Origin: Streptomyces sp. DH-12
Lineage (GTDB): Bacteria > Actinomycetota > Actinomycetes > Streptomycetales > Streptomycetaceae
Reading direction: 5' to 3'
Length of the DNA stretch: 64,000 bases
NCBI RefSeq assembly: GCF_002899455.1
Contig: NZ_PPFB01000001.1
Location: 1,178,001 to 1,242,000 of the forward strand
Made by a program: the position numbers and the translations under genes. Under the pieces are notes generated by a model. The model did no database searches, was not told where the DNA came from, and worked only from the letters and a program-made list of their open reading frames with translations. Each line of letters opens with the position of its first letter. Positions within the stretch are counted from its first letter, which is position 1. Of the stretch, positions 29,001-34,900 are shown one piece after another.

Positions 29001-29990
29001 TCAGTGCTCGTGCCGCGACTTCTCCCCGGCGCCCGCGGTGTGGGCGTGCTCGTGCGGGTCGTAGCCGGGGATGGTGCCGTCCGGCTTCCGGACCAGGAAC
29101 AGGCCGACCATGCCCATGTCGGAGTGGCTCTGGACGTGGCAGTGGTACATCCAGGCGCCCGCGCCCACCCCCTCCCCCGCGATCACCTGGAAGCCGAAGG
29201 AGTCGGCGGGGCCGCAGATCTTGGTGTCGACGACCCGGGTGGGGTCGTCGGGGCCGGTGAGGATGCCGGTGCGGTTGTCGGCCCAGCGGTGACCGTGCAT
29301 GTGGAAGGTGTGGTAGTACTCGCCGTGCGTGATCATGACGATCTCGACCCGGTCGCCCACGGTGGCCTCGAAGTCCGGGCCCGTGTGCGCCGGCTTGTTG
29401 TTGATCGTCATGTCGTTGAAGACGATGGTGTGGGTGGCGTCCGGCAGGATGTCCCCCTTGCGGCGCACGATCACCGGGCCGTAGAGGCCGCCCCGGATGC
29501 CGCCGGTGCCGTGCACGGTGCCGACGACGTGGTCGTGGTAGTGCCAGTACCCCGCGCTGCCCGCCCGCCAGGTGCCGTCCGCGCGCCGTCCCGGCTTGTG
29601 GGTGCGCCAGGTGTAGGTGCGGGTGCCGCCGGGCTCGACGGCGCTCCGGTTCTGCTGGGTGCCGTCGCTGGAGATCTCGTAGTCGACGCCGTGGACGTGC
29701 AGGCTGACCGGGACGTCCATGGTGTTCTCGAACTCGATGTGCAGGGTGTCGCCCTCGTTGAGCTCGATGAGCGGGCCGGGGATCGTCGCCTTGCCCTTCT
29801 CGAGGCCGTAGCCCATCTGCCCGCCGGCGAGGCGCTCGGCGTACAGCTTGATCCGGCGCACCTCGCCCCCGGCGGGCGCGGTCCTCGCCGTCGCGGGGGC
29901 GCTCGCGGCCCCGGAAGCGGCTGACAACGATGTCGTCGCCACTGCGGCGCCGCTCAGGAGTACCCGCCGGTTGAAACCGCGTCTGTCCAT
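29001..29990 (-). CDS. Small two-domain laccase (SLAC), Tat-exported multicopper oxidase
   Basis: 329 residues, very close by eye to S. coelicolor SLAC. The Tat signal [20 protein letters not shown] covers the start. Type-1/2/3 copper ligands: [31 protein letters not shown] and [14 protein letters not shown] (Cys between two His). Only two cupredoxin domains, so it should work as a homotrimer that oxidises phenols and reduces O2 to water outside the cell. The His-rich tail ([17 protein letters not shown]) may gather copper. It diverges from the ThuA/sugar-dehydrogenase unit across a 162-bp gap. Confidence 0.95.
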
Positions 29991-30064
29991 GCCGAACTCC
30001 CCATCTGGCTGTCATGAACCTGTGAAACCGTAGCGGTCGGCTCTGGGTTTATCCACACTCAGGA

Positions 30065-30111
30065 CAAAGTTCGTTTCTTTGCTGCGATAGGTATTGGCGT
30101 CCGGCGCAAAG
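30065..30111. promoter_or_regulatory. CAAAG/CTTTG half-sites between laccase and sugar-oxidation genes
   Basis: CAAAG-TTCGTTT-CTTTG (30065-30081) is an inverted repeat in an unusually AT-rich stretch, and GCAAAG at 30106 pairs with CTTTGC at 30077. The element lies in the shared promoter gap of two divergent export loci. Candidate operator. Confidence 0.4.
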
Positions 30112-30152
30112 AGGTCTAGCTTCCTTGACGCTGTTGCTGCGACCGAGGAGGG

Positions 30153-32699
30153 GTGGGTGGCCACGTGCGGTCCACATCGCGTCAAGAGCCCGCGCACACA
30201 CGCGGGTTGAGCACATCGAGCACCTCGAACGCACGAAGGACGAGAAGAGGACGACGCGCCTGGGCCGCCGCCGTGGCCGCCGGCGCCGTCGCCGCCGGCC
30301 TGCTGTCGGGTCCCGCCGCCAGCGCGCGCCCGGCCCCGGATCCGTCCCTGACAACGATGTCCATCACATCGCCGCCCGGCGGCGCGAACGTCCGTGTGCT
30401 GCTGTTCCACGGCTCGGCGGCCGACGGCGACGAGTCGCCCCTGGTGAACGCCGGGATCGCGGCGATCGAGCGGATCGGGCAGACCGGTCCGGAGAACCAG
30501 CGCTTCACGGTGACCGCCACCGGCGACGCGTCGGTCTTCACCAACGACAAGAAGCTGAGCCGCTTCAACACGATCGTCTTCCTCACCGGCGGCGGGGACG
30601 TCCTCGACCCGGAGCAGGAGGCGGGCCTGGAGGCGTACATGGAGGCCGGCGGCGGGTTCGTCGGCCTGCACGACGCGGCCCGAGCGGAGCCCTACTCGGA
30701 CTGGTTCACCGGGCTGATCGGCGCCCGCCCGGCCGCGGGGCAGGCCACCGTGCAGCGGGCGACCGTGGAGGTCGGCGACCGGCTGCACCCGGCGACCAGG
30801 AGCCTTCCGCTGGAGTGGAAGCGGCCCGACAAGTGGCTGAACTGGGCGAAGAACCCCTCCGGCGACGTCCACACGGTCGCCCGGGTGCGCGAGTCGACCT
30901 ACAAGCCCGGCGCCGGCGCCAACGGCTGGGACCACCCGGTCAGCTGGTGCCGCGACTACGACGGCGGCCGCTCCTTCTACACCGGCATGGGCGGCACGGT
31001 GTCGTCGTACGACGAGACCGACTTCCGCGAGCACCTGCGCGGCGCCCTGCTGTGGACCACGCGTCTGGTCCGGGCCGACTGCAAGGCGACCATCACCGGC
31101 AACTACAAGGCGGAGCGGCTCACCAAGCCCAACCAGCCCGGGCAGAACGACCAGATCGGCGAGCCGCACGGCCTGGTCACCGCGCCCGACGGCCGCGTGT
31201 TCTACATCGGCCGGGGCGGCGCCGACGCCTCGCAGCCGGTCGTCACCGACTGGAACGACCCTGATGTCGGCAAGGGCACGGGCGAGATCCACGTCTACGA
31301 CCCGAGGACCGAGGAGGTCACCCTCGCCGGCGCGCTCACCGTCTTCGGCAACAAGGGCGGCGGCGACGAGCTGACCAAGGTCGAGGAGGGCCTGCTCGGC
31401 ATCGAACTCGACCCGCGGTTCGCGCGGAACGGATGGGTGTACCTGCACTGGACCCCGCACTCGGGGATCGACCGGGACAAGCGGATGGCCGAGCGGCGGG
31501 TCTCCCGCTTCACGCTCGACCACGCCACCGGCAAGCTGGACCTGAGCAGCGAGAAGGTGCTGCTGAAGTGGCCGGTGCAGATCCACAGCTGCTGCCACGC
31601 GGGCGGCGGGATGGCCTGGGACTCCAAGGGCAACCTGTACATCGCCACCGGTGACAACAACTCCAGCGGCTTCAGCGGCGGTTACTCCGGCAACAACCCG
31701 GAGCCCCACTACAAGGGCGTGTCCTTCGCCGACGCCCGCCGCACCGCCGGCAACACCAACAACCTCAACGGCAAGATCCTGCGCATCCACCCGGAGCCGG
31801 ACGGCACGTACACCCTTCCCGAGGGCAACCTGTTCACCGGCAGGGAGACCGACGAGGGCGGCGGCAAGACCCGCGGCGAGATCTACGTGATGGGCGTGCG
31901 CAACCCGGCACGGATCTCCGTCGACAAGGAGACCGACGTCCTCTACGCGGGCTGGGTCGGCCCGGACGCCGGCGCCCCGTCGACGACCTGGGGACCGGCG
32001 AAGTACGACACGTTCGCCGTCATCACCAAGGCGTCCAACCGCGGCTGGCCGTACTGCATGGGCGACAAGCAGCCCTACCGGGACCGCAACCTGCCCGACC
32101 CGTCCAAGCCGCTCGGCTGGTACGACTGCGACCACCCGAAGAACGAGTCGCCGAACAACGACGGCCTGGTCAACCTGCCGCCGGTGACCGGCAACAACAT
32201 CTGGTACTCGCCGCAGGGCGGCGGCCCCGGCTTCCCGCGCGACGAGAACGGCGTCCCGTCCTACAAGCAGGACGAGGCGACGTACCGGCTGCCCTGGCTG
32301 AGGGGCGGCGGGCAGGCCGCGATGAACGGCCCGGTCTACCGCTACGACGACGCGAACCCCAGTGACGTCAAGTGGCCCGCGTACTGGGACGGCAAGTGGT
32401 TCGTCGGCGACTTCTACGACGCCGACCAGCCGCGCAACGCGGTGCTGATGGACCCGAGGACACAGGGCGACGGCGGTCTGCCGGTGCACTCGGAGTCCCT
32501 GAAGAAGATCGTGCCGGTCGGCGACGACGGCATCAGGAACCTGATGGGCTGGACGTTCGGCCCGGACGGCGCGCTGTACGTGCTGGACTACGGGCGCGGG
32601 TTCTTCACCTCCGACGCCAAGTCCGCGCTGTGGCGCGTCACCTACACGGGCGGCGGGCCGACCCCGGCCGCCGGGCAACTGGCGAGGGGGACGCAGTGA
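30153..32699 (+). CDS. Secreted ThuA-domain / soluble sugar dehydrogenase (GSDH) fusion
   Basis: 848 residues. Signal region [19 protein letters not shown] to about residue 58. ThuA-like class-I glutaminase-fold domain at about 78-300 (VRVLLFHGSA, FLTGGGDVLDPEQEAGLEAY, GGGFVGLHDAARAEPYSDWF). Six-bladed glucose/sorbosone dehydrogenase propeller at about 320-835 (IGEPHGLVTAPDGRVFYIG, EEGLLGIELDPRFARNGWVY, HCCHAGG-type segment, EIYVMGVRNPARIS, LMGWTFGPDGALYVLDYG). Such propellers usually use PQQ. Likely extracellular oxidation or 3-keto-sugar handling. GTG at 30153 abuts GAGGAGGG; GTG at 30165 is an alternative. Stop overlaps the next start. Confidence 0.87.
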   Translation: MGGHVRSTSRQEPAHTRGLSTSSTSNARRTRRGRRAWAAAVAAGAVAAGLLSGPAASARPAPDPSLTTMSITSPPGGANVRVLLFHGSAADGDESPLVNAGIAAIERIGQTGPENQRFTVTATGDASVFTNDKKLSRFNTIVFLTGGGDVLDPEQEAGLEAYMEAGGGFVGLHDAARAEPYSDWFTGLIGARPAAGQATVQRATVEVGDRLHPATRSLPLEWKRPDKWLNWAKNPSGDVHTVARVRESTYKPGAGANGWDHPVSWCRDYDGGRSFYTGMGGTVSSYDETDFREHLRGALLWTTRLVRADCKATITGNYKAERLTKPNQPGQNDQIGEPHGLVTAPDGRVFYIGRGGADASQPVVTDWNDPDVGKGTGEIHVYDPRTEEVTLAGALTVFGNKGGGDELTKVEEGLLGIELDPRFARNGWVYLHWTPHSGIDRDKRMAERRVSRFTLDHATGKLDLSSEKVLLKWPVQIHSCCHAGGGMAWDSKGNLYIATGDNNSSGFSGGYSGNNPEPHYKGVSFADARRTAGNTNNLNGKILRIHPEPDGTYTLPEGNLFTGRETDEGGGKTRGEIYVMGVRNPARISVDKETDVLYAGWVGPDAGAPSTTWGPAKYDTFAVITKASNRGWPYCMGDKQPYRDRNLPDPSKPLGWYDCDHPKNESPNNDGLVNLPPVTGNNIWYSPQGGGPGFPRDENGVPSYKQDEATYRLPWLRGGGQAAMNGPVYRYDDANPSDVKWPAYWDGKWFVGDFYDADQPRNAVLMDPRTQGDGGLPVHSESLKKIVPVGDDGIRNLMGWTFGPDGALYVLDYGRGFFTSDAKSALWRVTYTGGGPTPAAGQLARGTQ

Positions 32700-34900
32700 C
32701 ACGTCGACCGAGAGTGTGGGCCGCGCTGCTGGCCGGCCTGATGATGGTGCTCGGCCTGCAGGCGCTGCCCGCCGCCGGGCAGCCGAAGGCCGAGGGCGGC
32801 CGCGCGGCGGCCCAGGTCCTCACCTGGACCGCCGGCAACGACATCGACAGGTACCTGTCCGCACCGGCCACCGCGGTGGCCGGTCCCGCGACGATCGTCT
32901 TCGAGAACAGCGTGGCCACCGGCAACACCACCGGCATGCCGCACACCCTGACGTTCGTCACCTCCGACCCGGAGTACAACAACGACGTCCAGCTGAACAT
33001 CCTGGCCAACCCGACCGACGCGCAGGGCGGCCGGCACACGGCGGAGGTGACGCTCACCCCGGGCCGGTACCTCTACCACTGCACCATCCCCGGCCACGGC
33101 GAGATGCGGGGCGTGCTCACCGTCACCGAGGGCGGCGGCGAGGACACCACCGCGCCGGAGGCCACGGCGAAGGTGACCGGCACGCAGAACGGCCAGGGCG
33201 CGTACGTCGGGTCCGCGAGCGTCACCCTGGAGGCCACGGACGAGGGCTCGGGCGTGGACCGCATCGAGTACGCGCTCGGTGACGACGACGCCTGGCAGCC
33301 GTACACCGCCCCGGTCGTGGTCGACCAGGTCGGCACGCACACCGTCCGCTACCGCGCCCTGGACAGGGCCGGCAACGTGTCGGAGGAGAAGAGCGTCGAG
33401 TTCACCGTCGTCGCTCCGCCGACGGACGACACCACGCCGCCGGAGACCTCGGCGACCGTGGACGGCGAGAAGAACGCCGACGGTCACTACATCGACATGG
33501 CGACGGTCACCGTCACCGCCTCCGACACCGGCTCCGGCGTCAACACCATCGAGTACGCGCTCGGCGCGGACGGCGCCTGGCAGCCGTACGCCGGTCCGGT
33601 GATGGTGCACGAGGCGGGCACCCACACCGTCCGCTACCGGGCCACCGACAAGGCGGGCAACGCCGCGGCGGAGAAGAGCGTGGAGTTCACGGTCGTCGCC
33701 GCTCCCCCGCAGGACACCACCCCGCCCACCACCGGTGTCACCGTCCAGGGCACGAAGAACTCCGACGGCGCCTACGTCGGCCGCGCCACGGTGACGGTCA
33801 GCGCCGACGACGGGCACGGCGGGTCAGGAGTGGCGCGCGTCGAGTACTCCCTCGACGCGGGGCCGTACCTGGCGTACACCGCGCCCGTGGTGGTCGACCG
33901 GGCGGGCCGGCACACCGTGGCCTACCGGGCGACCGACGAGGCCGGCAACACCTCCGAGCCGCTCACGGTGAGCTTCACGGTGGTGTCCGGCGGGGTGCCC
34001 GCGCCCCCCTGCCCCGAGTACGACGAGCGGCTGACCGTGATCGTCGGCACGGTCGACTCGGGCGTGCCGAACCGGGTGACCGACAACCGGTGCCGGATCG
34101 GCGAGCTGATCGAGGACGAGAAGGAGTGGACCTCGCAGGCGCTGTTCCTGAAGCACGTCAGGGCCGTGCTGGACGCGCTGGAGGAGGAAGGGGTCGTCGA
34201 CCGGCGTGAGTACCGGGCGATTAACAAGGCGGCCCGGCAGTCCGGCATCGGCACGCCCGGTCGGACCGAGGGCTACCGCACCATCCTCGACGGCACCGAG
34301 GCGTCGTTCGCCCGGTGGGAGCAGGTGGGCGGCGGTTCGTTCAGCCTGAACCCGGACGGGTCGATCACCTCGGGCACCACCCGGGGCGGGCTCGGCATGC
34401 TGTGGTTCCCGGAGCGCAAGTACGGCGACTTCTCGCTGAAGCTCCAGTGGCGTGACGACGCCCCGGGCACCGGCAACGCCAACTCCGGTGTGTTCGTGCG
34501 GTTCCCGCAGATCCACGACCACCCGGAGGAGCCCCGTCCCGAGTGGGCCGCCATCAAGTTCGGGCACGAGATCCAGGTGTTCGACTCGCCCACCGGCGAC
34601 ATGTACAAGACGGGCTCGGTCTACGGCTTCGACCGTGTGGGCCTGGCCGGCGCGGGCGTGACGCAGAAGGGCACCTGGAACGACTACGAGATCCGGGTGG
34701 TGGACCAGCACTACGAGGTCTACCGCAACGGCGTGCTGATCAACGAGTTCGACAACGTCGGCGGCCTGGACTTCTCCCCGCCGCGCTCGGACGACCCGGG
34801 CACGGACGGGCGGCGGTACGCCTCCGGCTACATCGGACTGCAGGTGCACGGCACGACGGACGTCGTCTCCTACCGGGACGTGCGGATCAAGGAGCTGTGA
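32696..34900 (+). CDS. Secreted cupredoxin / OmpL47-repeat / 3-keto-disaccharide hydrolase (DUF1080) protein
   Basis: 734 residues starting at a GTG (32696) that overlaps the previous stop as GTGA. Signal peptide 1-32. Plastocyanin-like domain 37-145 with type-1 copper ligands His in TGMPHTLTF and Cys/His/Met in YHCTIPGHGEM. Three OmpL47-like beta-domains at about 148-240, 241-338 and 338-435 (TVRYRALDRAGNVS, TVRYRATDKAGNAA, TVAYRATDEAGNTS). Helical linker 437-515. C-terminal DUF1080 domain about 521-733 (LGMLWFPERKYGDFSLKLQW, NANSGVFVRFP). Probably takes electrons by copper and cleaves 3-keto-glycosides; see findings. Confidence 0.87.
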   Translation: MTRRPRVWAALLAGLMMVLGLQALPAAGQPKAEGGRAAAQVLTWTAGNDIDRYLSAPATAVAGPATIVFENSVATGNTTGMPHTLTFVTSDPEYNNDVQLNILANPTDAQGGRHTAEVTLTPGRYLYHCTIPGHGEMRGVLTVTEGGGEDTTAPEATAKVTGTQNGQGAYVGSASVTLEATDEGSGVDRIEYALGDDDAWQPYTAPVVVDQVGTHTVRYRALDRAGNVSEEKSVEFTVVAPPTDDTTPPETSATVDGEKNADGHYIDMATVTVTASDTGSGVNTIEYALGADGAWQPYAGPVMVHEAGTHTVRYRATDKAGNAAAEKSVEFTVVAAPPQDTTPPTTGVTVQGTKNSDGAYVGRATVTVSADDGHGGSGVARVEYSLDAGPYLAYTAPVVVDRAGRHTVAYRATDEAGNTSEPLTVSFTVVSGGVPAPPCPEYDERLTVIVGTVDSGVPNRVTDNRCRIGELIEDEKEWTSQALFLKHVRAVLDALEEEGVVDRREYRAINKAARQSGIGTPGRTEGYRTILDGTEASFARWEQVGGGSFSLNPDGSITSGTTRGGLGMLWFPERKYGDFSLKLQWRDDAPGTGNANSGVFVRFPQIHDHPEEPRPEWAAIKFGHEIQVFDSPTGDMYKTGSVYGFDRVGLAGAGVTQKGTWNDYEIRVVDQHYEVYRNGVLINEFDNVGGLDFSPPRSDDPGTDGRRYASGYIGLQVHGTTDVVSYRDVRIKEL
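33140..34000 (+). repeat. Three ~97-codon tandem repeats coding OmpL47-like domains
   Basis: Each unit starts near DTTPPxTxxTVxGxKN, continues YVGxATVTVxAxDxGSGV..IEYALG and ends HTVRYRATDxAGN. The nucleotide copies also resemble each other, for example GCCTGGCAGCCGTAC in units one and two. They probably act as spacers between the copper and hydrolase domains. Confidence 0.75.

Follow-up and report, generated by a model that had tools for sequence, protein, structure and literature searches.

Small two-domain laccases, the SLAC family to which SCO6712 of Streptomyces coelicolor, Ssl1 and SilA belong, are widely studied and engineered enzymes with many solved structures, and they have so far been mainly enzymes of biotechnology. 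Laccases, small laccase among them, oxidise phenols (PMC3918160), and a silA laccase mutant of Streptomyces ipomoeae shows poorer growth and poorer lignin solubilisation on wheat straw and is not significantly worse in complex medium (PMC5675413); roles of Streptomyces laccases in morphogenesis, lignocellulose and antibiotics are treated as speculation in a 2020 review (PMC7036934). From mutant fitness, a DUF1080 protein of Caulobacter was proposed to act as a periplasmic 3'-ketolactose hydrolase (PMC9007349). Statements attributed here to PMC-numbered papers refer to the parts of those papers that were examined. We analysed a stretch of 64,000 nucleotides from Streptomyces sp. DH-12 (RefSeq assembly GCF_002899455.1, contig NZ_PPFB01000001.1, positions 1,178,001 to 1,242,000), referred to as the window and numbered from its first letter, in which a small laccase gene (29001–29990, minus strand, 329 amino acids) diverges from two plus-strand genes. 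The first of these encodes a ThuA domain and a sugar dehydrogenase domain of the GSDH type (30153–32699, up to 848 amino acids), and the second encodes a cupredoxin domain, three OmpL47-type repeats and a DUF1080, or 3-keto-disaccharide hydrolase, domain (32696–34900, 734 amino acids, possible GTG start); both products are probably secreted. We found that the laccase, ThuA-GSDH and cupredoxin-DUF1080 genes form one conserved unit and not a chance grouping, and we tentatively read this trio, with a probability of roughly 0.4, as a secreted copper-dependent module for extracellular oxidative glycoside breakdown.

The conservation of the trio was followed in 150 genomes of the same genus, which were searched with the laccase and with the cupredoxin-DUF1080 protein, and the surroundings of the laccase matches, in stretches of at most 18 kb, were searched for nine genes of the window. 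The laccase was found in 95 of the 150 genomes, and the trio occurred in identical order and orientation at 89 loci from 89 genomes, which together with the window makes 90 of the 95 laccase-bearing genomes, in a count that accepts non-intact genes. The five exceptions are G120, G048, G116, G147 and G058. An apparent second-gene match at the G120 laccase locus (L128) proved to be a DUF1080 paralog with 28% coverage on the minus strand, so that the canonical loci number 89 and not 90; a cupredoxin-DUF1080 gene of this genome sits on a different contig, close to its end (L129). In G048 (L135, from ~10028) end parts of the laccase and of DUF1080 adjoin; the remainder of each gene is absent, as is ThuA-GSDH, which is either a deletion remnant or an assembly join. 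DUF1080 paralog matches aside, the second protein was found without the laccase in just one of the 150 genomes (G073), where the contig ends. Flanking genes were variable among the 90 counted loci (L128 included; some short at contig ends), with lacI present in 42, the zinc dehydrogenase gene adh in 25 and a desaturase gene in 40. Within a set of named genomes, complete open reading frames (ORFs) for all three genes were recovered in 73 of 81 loci (80 genomes and one plasmid), the remaining 8 being cut or unresolved by the script. Relatedness among same-genus genomes means that these linkage counts cannot be treated as independent. We set aside, as evidence, the Fisher p of 6e-36 for co-occurrence of the laccase and second gene, which takes no account of relatedness; in the pair tally of 92/3/1/54, G120 and G048 are entered as 'both'.

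The linkage extends beyond the genus. A laccase search of 296 genomes of the class gave 23 non-Streptomyces carriers, spread over three other families, and 20 loci from 16 of these were fetched. ThuA-GSDH adjoins the laccase in 15 of the 16 genomes (15 loci, one per genome), and at 14 of these loci a single ORF of 1345–1417 amino acids carries ThuA-GSDH together with DUF1080, the fifteenth running to the contig end; Pfam ThuA, GSDH and DUF1080 were all detected in each of three fusion proteins checked. A cupredoxin-OmpL47 gene without DUF1080 then follows at 14 loci, as a listed ORF at 11 of them and truncated by the end of the stretch at 3, with 4–8 OmpL47 stretches in the three proteins checked and Copper-bind in two of three scanned. 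DUF1080 is thus on the second protein in Streptomyces but on ThuA-GSDH elsewhere, and therefore a domain has been swapped between neighbours; full-length matches to the cupredoxin-DUF1080 protein outside the genus were absent from a phylum-wide search of 346 genomes. The link persists even though laccase orientation varies, from the same strand and ~15 bases upstream (L300) to divergent (L293). Three further non-Streptomyces loci combine laccase pairs with the cupredoxin-OmpL47 gene only, and in G500, one of the 16 genomes, no GSDH was seen at two stretches that both begin at contig ends, where the cupredoxin gene of L299 is cut. An earlier note on this DNA, made from the sequence alone, had suggested comparing co-occurrence across genomes; the laccase proved to be linked, not unlinked, in nearly all of its examined relatives. 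Tandem pairs of two-domain laccases were also seen outside Streptomyces (L294, L296, L297, L299, L310 and L311), some with the cupredoxin-OmpL47 gene alone alongside.

At the window locus, all three genes and every domain named in that note were recovered in the ORF list and in Pfam/NCBIfam profile searches. The laccase scores 73 bits to Cu-oxidase_2 and 67 bits to Cu-oxidase_3, and matches solved two-domain laccases over nearly its full length (5lhl, E 4.7e-198; 3cg8, E 3.7e-191; 3tas, E 1e-188 or better). With two Cu-oxidase domains, ~330 amino acids and full-length similarity, it is by sequence a clear member of the SLAC family, with laccase activity predicted for it by homology, and its N-terminus, MDRRGFNRR, looks twin-arginine-like by eye.

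In the 734-residue second protein, the cupredoxin domain (32813–33130, plus strand, ends approximate) was assigned from PF00127, weak structure matches to auracyanin (2aan and 1ov8, E 0.03–0.05) and ligand conservation. The predicted type-1 copper ligands H83, C129, H134 and M137, in the arrangement His, Cys-x4-His-x2-Met, are each at least 99% conserved in 90 aligned proteins (window included), so that the copper site on which the earlier note depended is, as judged by conservation, intact. Of 93 same-genus extracts, 87 show the C-x-H-x-M motif, and the other six are split, mis-started, cut-off, remnant or paralog extracts; the motif is also visible in most non-Streptomyces cupredoxins and in all five haloarchaeal ones examined. 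The three OmpL47-type repeats (33170–33985, plus strand, ends approximate) match NF047446 in three stretches with 278 bits, and the DUF1080 domain (34274–34891, plus strand) scores 111 bits to PF06439 (cut-off 26.8), which places it by sequence in the 3-keto-disaccharide hydrolase family, with structure matches to 3imm (E 0.0009) and 3h3l (E 0.003).

The ThuA domain of the first protein (amino acids 81–302; 30393–31058, plus strand) belongs to its family with 200 bits to PF06283 (cut-off 33.4). The GSDH-type beta-propeller (31371–32645, plus strand) belongs to its fold family with 85 bits to PF07995 (cut-off 25), covering just model positions 44–224 of 332; the Pfam-matched part spans amino acids 407–637 (31371–32063, plus strand), and homology extends to about residue 831. 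H482, R583-N584 and G614-P615 align with His144, Arg228-Asn229 and Gly247-Pro248 of soluble glucose dehydrogenase (sGDH), and are invariant in 48 aligned sequences (window included); in sGDH these are the catalytic histidine, the Arg-Asn pair at the ketones of pyrroloquinoline quinone (PQQ) and a Gly-Pro at calcium (PMC6881810). The Gly-Pro calcium loop is absent in two haloarchaeal members of the wider GSDH branch. This branch has CCHxGG where Asd enzymes have HNGG or HSGG: of the 22 branch members printed, 20 have adjacent cysteines before the catalytic histidine and 18 have the complete motif. Its C480-C481-H482 lies at 31590–31598 (plus strand) of the window, and the cysteine pair marks most of the branch.

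Given a first start at 30153, a divergent gap of 162 bp (29991–30152, no strand assigned) separates the laccase and ThuA-GSDH genes and is a candidate shared promoter or regulatory region. An alignment of 91 sequences, window included, shows strongly conserved blocks at ~30048–30074 and ~30108–30137, and this part of the gap (30048–30137) is a possible shared operator of some regulator. The overlap of the two plus-strand genes, as described in the earlier note, depends on the start codon: GTG at 32696 gives a 4-base overlap (GTGA) with the preceding stop, a start of this kind having been chosen in 49 of 91 related loci by a script biased towards starts near the window's own. Annotators of the Streptomyces fungicidicus ortholog placed both starts further downstream, with no overlap, so the starts and the overlap given here are provisional; conservation of ThuA-GSDH begins near residue 33, and its true start may be later. 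The nearest second proteins (94–95%) among the 80 named genomes kept are those of Streptomyces albogriseolus, griseoincarnatus, althioticus and werraensis. In S. fungicidicus (L247), desaturase, WhiB, VOC and LacI genes and the trio are all on a 927-kb replicon labelled plasmid p1.

Domains of the trio recur in other combinations. The window's own genome encodes a paralog with GSDH, PKD, CBM6, ThuA and DUF1080 in a single protein of 1241 amino acids (L137, 4486–12867 region; contig C1, ~1348200–1356600). Its neighbours are a TIM-barrel gene resembling IolE (36 bits) and a gene of the Gfo/Idh/MocA family, which reaches 370 bits against a cut-off of 650 for levoglucosan dehydrogenase, and the neighbourhood is likely a keto-sugar catabolic operon. 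A permease-like ORF, recognised by eye, also lies beside this paralog, and a third DUF1080 protein of the genome (L138, 5062–8073) has PA14, CBM35 and DUF1080, with a largely unassigned stretch between PA14 and CBM35. In plasmid records, GSDH is fused to electron carriers as ThuA-GSDH-cupredoxin and GSDH-cupredoxin (Haladaptatus), GSDH-cupredoxin (Natronococcus), cupredoxin-GSDH (Halocatena) and GSDH-cytochrome c (Runella). A multicopper oxidase lies within 7 kb of the GSDH-cupredoxin gene on two of the three haloarchaeal plasmids having such a gene. A 22-kb part of the Haladaptatus pallidirubidus plasmid (L288, 2846–25325) encodes two sugar isomerases, an enzyme of the Gfo/Idh/MocA family, DUF1080, a transporter and a multicopper oxidase, and contains the GSDH-cupredoxin and ThuA-GSDH-cupredoxin genes. 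On the Natronococcus plasmid (L257, 5935–24001) a cupredoxin-multicopper oxidase is flanked to one side by DUF1080-GSDH and TIM-barrel-DUF1080 genes and to the other by the GSDH-cupredoxin gene. Both clusters include a BMP-family transporter and sugar isomerase or TIM-barrel genes, and both appear to be archaeal counterparts of the Streptomyces trio. No multicopper oxidase is annotated in 40 kb of the Halocatena plasmid, and no GSDH or DUF1080 is annotated near related multicopper oxidase genes of three other haloarchaea, the gene tables being incomplete in both cases.

We propose an extracellular oxidation and cleavage chain because the trio brings together a protein of oxidoreductase fold, a carrier with type-1 copper, a copper oxidase that reduces O2 and a domain for keto-glycoside cleavage, and because their N-termini look signal-like by eye. 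In such a chain, the GSDH propeller would oxidise a sugar hydroxyl of a glycoside, using a scavenged quinone such as PQQ or another cofactor, and the type-1 copper domain of the second protein would accept the electrons singly. The small laccase could then re-oxidise the cupredoxin copper, directly or via a small phenolic mediator, reducing O2 to water. The DUF1080 domain would cleave the 3-keto-glycoside, ThuA may handle the keto product, and the OmpL47 repeats may anchor the assembly to the cell surface or to the substrate. What the sequences establish is the linkage, the domains, the conserved copper ligands, the move of DUF1080 between the two proteins and the GSDH fusions elsewhere; secretion, the substrate, the oxidised position, the cofactor, each reaction and the direction of electron flow are inferred. 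Linkage in Streptomyces and in the other families, the 1241-residue paralog, the carrier fusions, the proximity of haloarchaeal multicopper oxidases and the Caulobacter proposal (PMC9007349) are all counted in favour of this reading. The earlier note had sketched much the same sequence of steps; it gains from the conserved unit and from GSDH fusions to cupredoxin, cytochrome c and DUF1080, and loses where it called the dehydrogenase PQQ-type, which is now doubtful.

Several observations weigh against this reading. Its primary oxidation step is left without a certain cofactor because the arginine pair of sGDH is lost and PqqC was not found in most hosts. At the columns equivalent to Arg406 and Arg408, none of the 22 branch members printed has arginine (Lys at the Arg406 column in two; the Streptomyces members have Arg one position earlier), and the Lys377 region of sGDH is not alignable with the branch. 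We take Arg406 to be a ligand of the PQQ carboxylates in sGDH. Arg408 and Lys377 are also PQQ ligands (PMC6881789), and the window GSDH shows no counterpart of the Arg406/Arg408 pair. The lost pair does not prove that PQQ goes unused, because PQQ binding in a fungal AA12 enzyme dispenses with Lys377 and uses arginines that differ in part (PMC6881789). The NCBIfam PQQ-dehydrogenase model TIGR03606 gives 31 bits against a cut-off of 434.55. With the PqqC model TIGR02111, counting only matches above the curated cut-off, there was no match in the window's own genome, in 72 of 90 trio-carrying Streptomyces or in any of the 23 non-Streptomyces laccase genomes; three trio genomes (G047, G050 and G105) gave uncounted weak matches of 43–45 bits against 240, and 3 of 13 further Streptomyces laccase genomes were positive. 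All 14 named control genomes were PqqC-negative, and the 32 in-genus positives alone show that the search works there. Enrichment of PQQ synthesis among trio carriers was considered and rejected (18 of 90 versus 14 of 60 other same-genus genomes, Fisher p = 0.69). As PqqC was not found in most hosts, these would scavenge PQQ or do without it in this system, and 'PQQ-type' is therefore better taken as a family name than as a cofactor: the fold, the catalytic His, Arg and Asn and the calcium loop agree with PQQ use, while the basic ligands of the PQQ carboxylates, the supply and the family score do not.

Other points against the reading concern chemistry, structure and linkage. Characterised sGDH enzymes oxidise C1 to lactones, not C3 (PMC6881810), so the link to 3-keto chemistry comes from DUF1080 and ThuA only. 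The Copper-bind score of the cupredoxin is marginal (PF00127, 21.7 bits, cut-off 21.2), and structure prediction from an alignment of close relatives gave a mean predicted local distance difference test (pLDDT) score of 38.7 for ThuA-GSDH, too poor for a fold search, as was also the 66.3 obtained for the cupredoxin-DUF1080 protein. The second gene has an internal stop in G037 and is in pieces in G119; laccases without partners in the fetched stretch occur in G058, G116 and G147 and as a second copy in G144, and two non-Streptomyces loci (L298 and L306) have neither partner in the stretch. In a quick tree, the four partnerless Streptomyces laccases fall at three places inside or next to trio-linked rows, several on long branches, positions that would fit a later loss of partners as opposed to an ancestral state; a label test, covering labelled rows only, is compatible with a single origin of the partnerless laccases. 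Finally, the module is a proposal drawn from sequence and linkage.

The main rival keeps the glycoside cleavage and dispenses with the electron chain: GSDH, ThuA and DUF1080 would free a phenolic aglycone from plant or microbial glycosides, the laccase would oxidise the phenol, and the cupredoxin would store copper or deliver it to the laccase. The linkage data fit this equally well, phenols are laccase substrates (PMC3918160), and Agrobacterium cleaves a C3-oxidised phenolic glucoside by beta-elimination (PMC10628242). The weaker growth of the silA mutant on straw but not significantly in complex medium (PMC5675413) is compatible with phenol release and with the electron chain alike. This rival leaves two things unexplained, namely that GSDH in other phyla is fused to cupredoxin or cytochrome c and that the cupredoxin retains a type-1 site with its Met ligand, and we consider it somewhat unlikely. 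The same fusions tell against a GSDH that acts as a non-redox, lyase- or hydrolase-like propeller on keto-sugars, with oxidation left to the laccase and a mediator or to another secreted oxidase. The lost arginine pair, the lack of PqqC matches in most hosts and the low TIGR03606 score would all be expected from such a propeller; however, the equivalents of His144, Arg228/Asn229 and Gly247-Pro248 are kept, and AA12 shows PQQ binding with a partly different set of ligands (PMC6881789), which makes a non-redox role highly unlikely.

An explanation from copper handling or development, in which the laccase and cupredoxin detoxify or route surface copper while the cell differentiates, the sugar domains being directed at the cell's own envelope polysaccharide, draws on SCO6710, a listed glycosyl hydrolase with putative CsoR repression whose level was two-fold lower in cultures from high-copper spores (PMC6414726). 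SCO6710 should be the cupredoxin-DUF1080 gene, judging from its number beside SLAC SCO6712 and from the arrangement in S. violaceoruber, an identity that is itself indirect. No CsoR-like palindrome was found in the laccase/ThuA-GSDH gap of 91 sequences with one simple pattern, other positions not being scanned, and both haloarchaeal clusters sit with genes for sugar uptake and catabolism; we regard this explanation as distinctly unlikely. That the three genes are functionally unconnected neighbours inherited together by descent is extremely improbable: same-genus genomes are related and local gene order may persist, but the flanks (lacI, adh and desaturase) vary while the trio stays, in three other families the linkage outlasts differences in laccase orientation and the move of DUF1080 between proteins, and a comparable set exists in haloarchaea.

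If the proposed chain operates, O2 would drive glycosidic bond breakage outside a Gram-positive cell without ordinary glycosidases, possibly with a new cofactor use by GSDH. A more specific form of this reading, which we hold with considerable doubt, is that small laccases are terminal oxidases of an extracellular copper-wired respiratory chain, in which a divergent GSDH without canonical PQQ binding would feed electrons from glycosides to a cupredoxin carrier, and through it to laccase and O2, the product being split by a 3-keto-glycoside hydrolase of the same scaffold. This would give small laccases a natural function, with a parallel version in haloarchaea. The gene set that accompanies most small laccases makes their function directly testable with three defined proteins.

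No description of a system of this make-up was found in the open-access full texts searched, in the parts examined, which agrees with the earlier note; most subscription papers, the CsoR regulon paper included, lie outside this scope. With the SLAC family the window laccase shares the laccase gene itself, and the ThuA-GSDH and cupredoxin-DUF1080 partners go unmentioned in the parts of the SLAC papers examined. The Caulobacter LacABC and DUF1080 pathway for 3'-ketolactose (PMC9007349) has the same proposed logic, extracytoplasmic glycoside oxidation coupled to DUF1080 cleavage; the trio differs in its GSDH propeller as oxidant, its cupredoxin carrier and its attached laccase, and no LacABC-type dehydrogenase was found among the trio and five neighbouring genes scanned. 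The quinoproteins sGDH and Asd (1C9U, 3DAS and 2G8S) have in common with the window GSDH the fold family, the catalytic His, the Arg-Asn pair and the Gly-Pro calcium loop, whereas CCHxGG in place of H(N/S)GG, the lack of Arg406/Arg408 equivalents, the ThuA fusion and the lack of a PqqC match in most hosts set the latter apart. The fungal AA12 pyranose dehydrogenase with cytochrome b (PMC6881789) likewise joins a GSDH-fold enzyme to an electron-carrier domain; in the trio the carrier is a copper cupredoxin on a separate protein, ThuA and DUF1080 are present and a laccase is linked. The haloarchaeal clusters resemble the trio in bringing a multicopper oxidase together with GSDH, cupredoxin and DUF1080, and in the Haladaptatus cluster also ThuA, and differ in longer multicopper oxidases (556 and 662 amino acids), another fusion arrangement and the inclusion of sugar isomerase and transporter genes. 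We regard the trio as a variant of keto-glycoside catabolism outside the cytoplasm, one whose copper and laccase arm is unusual.

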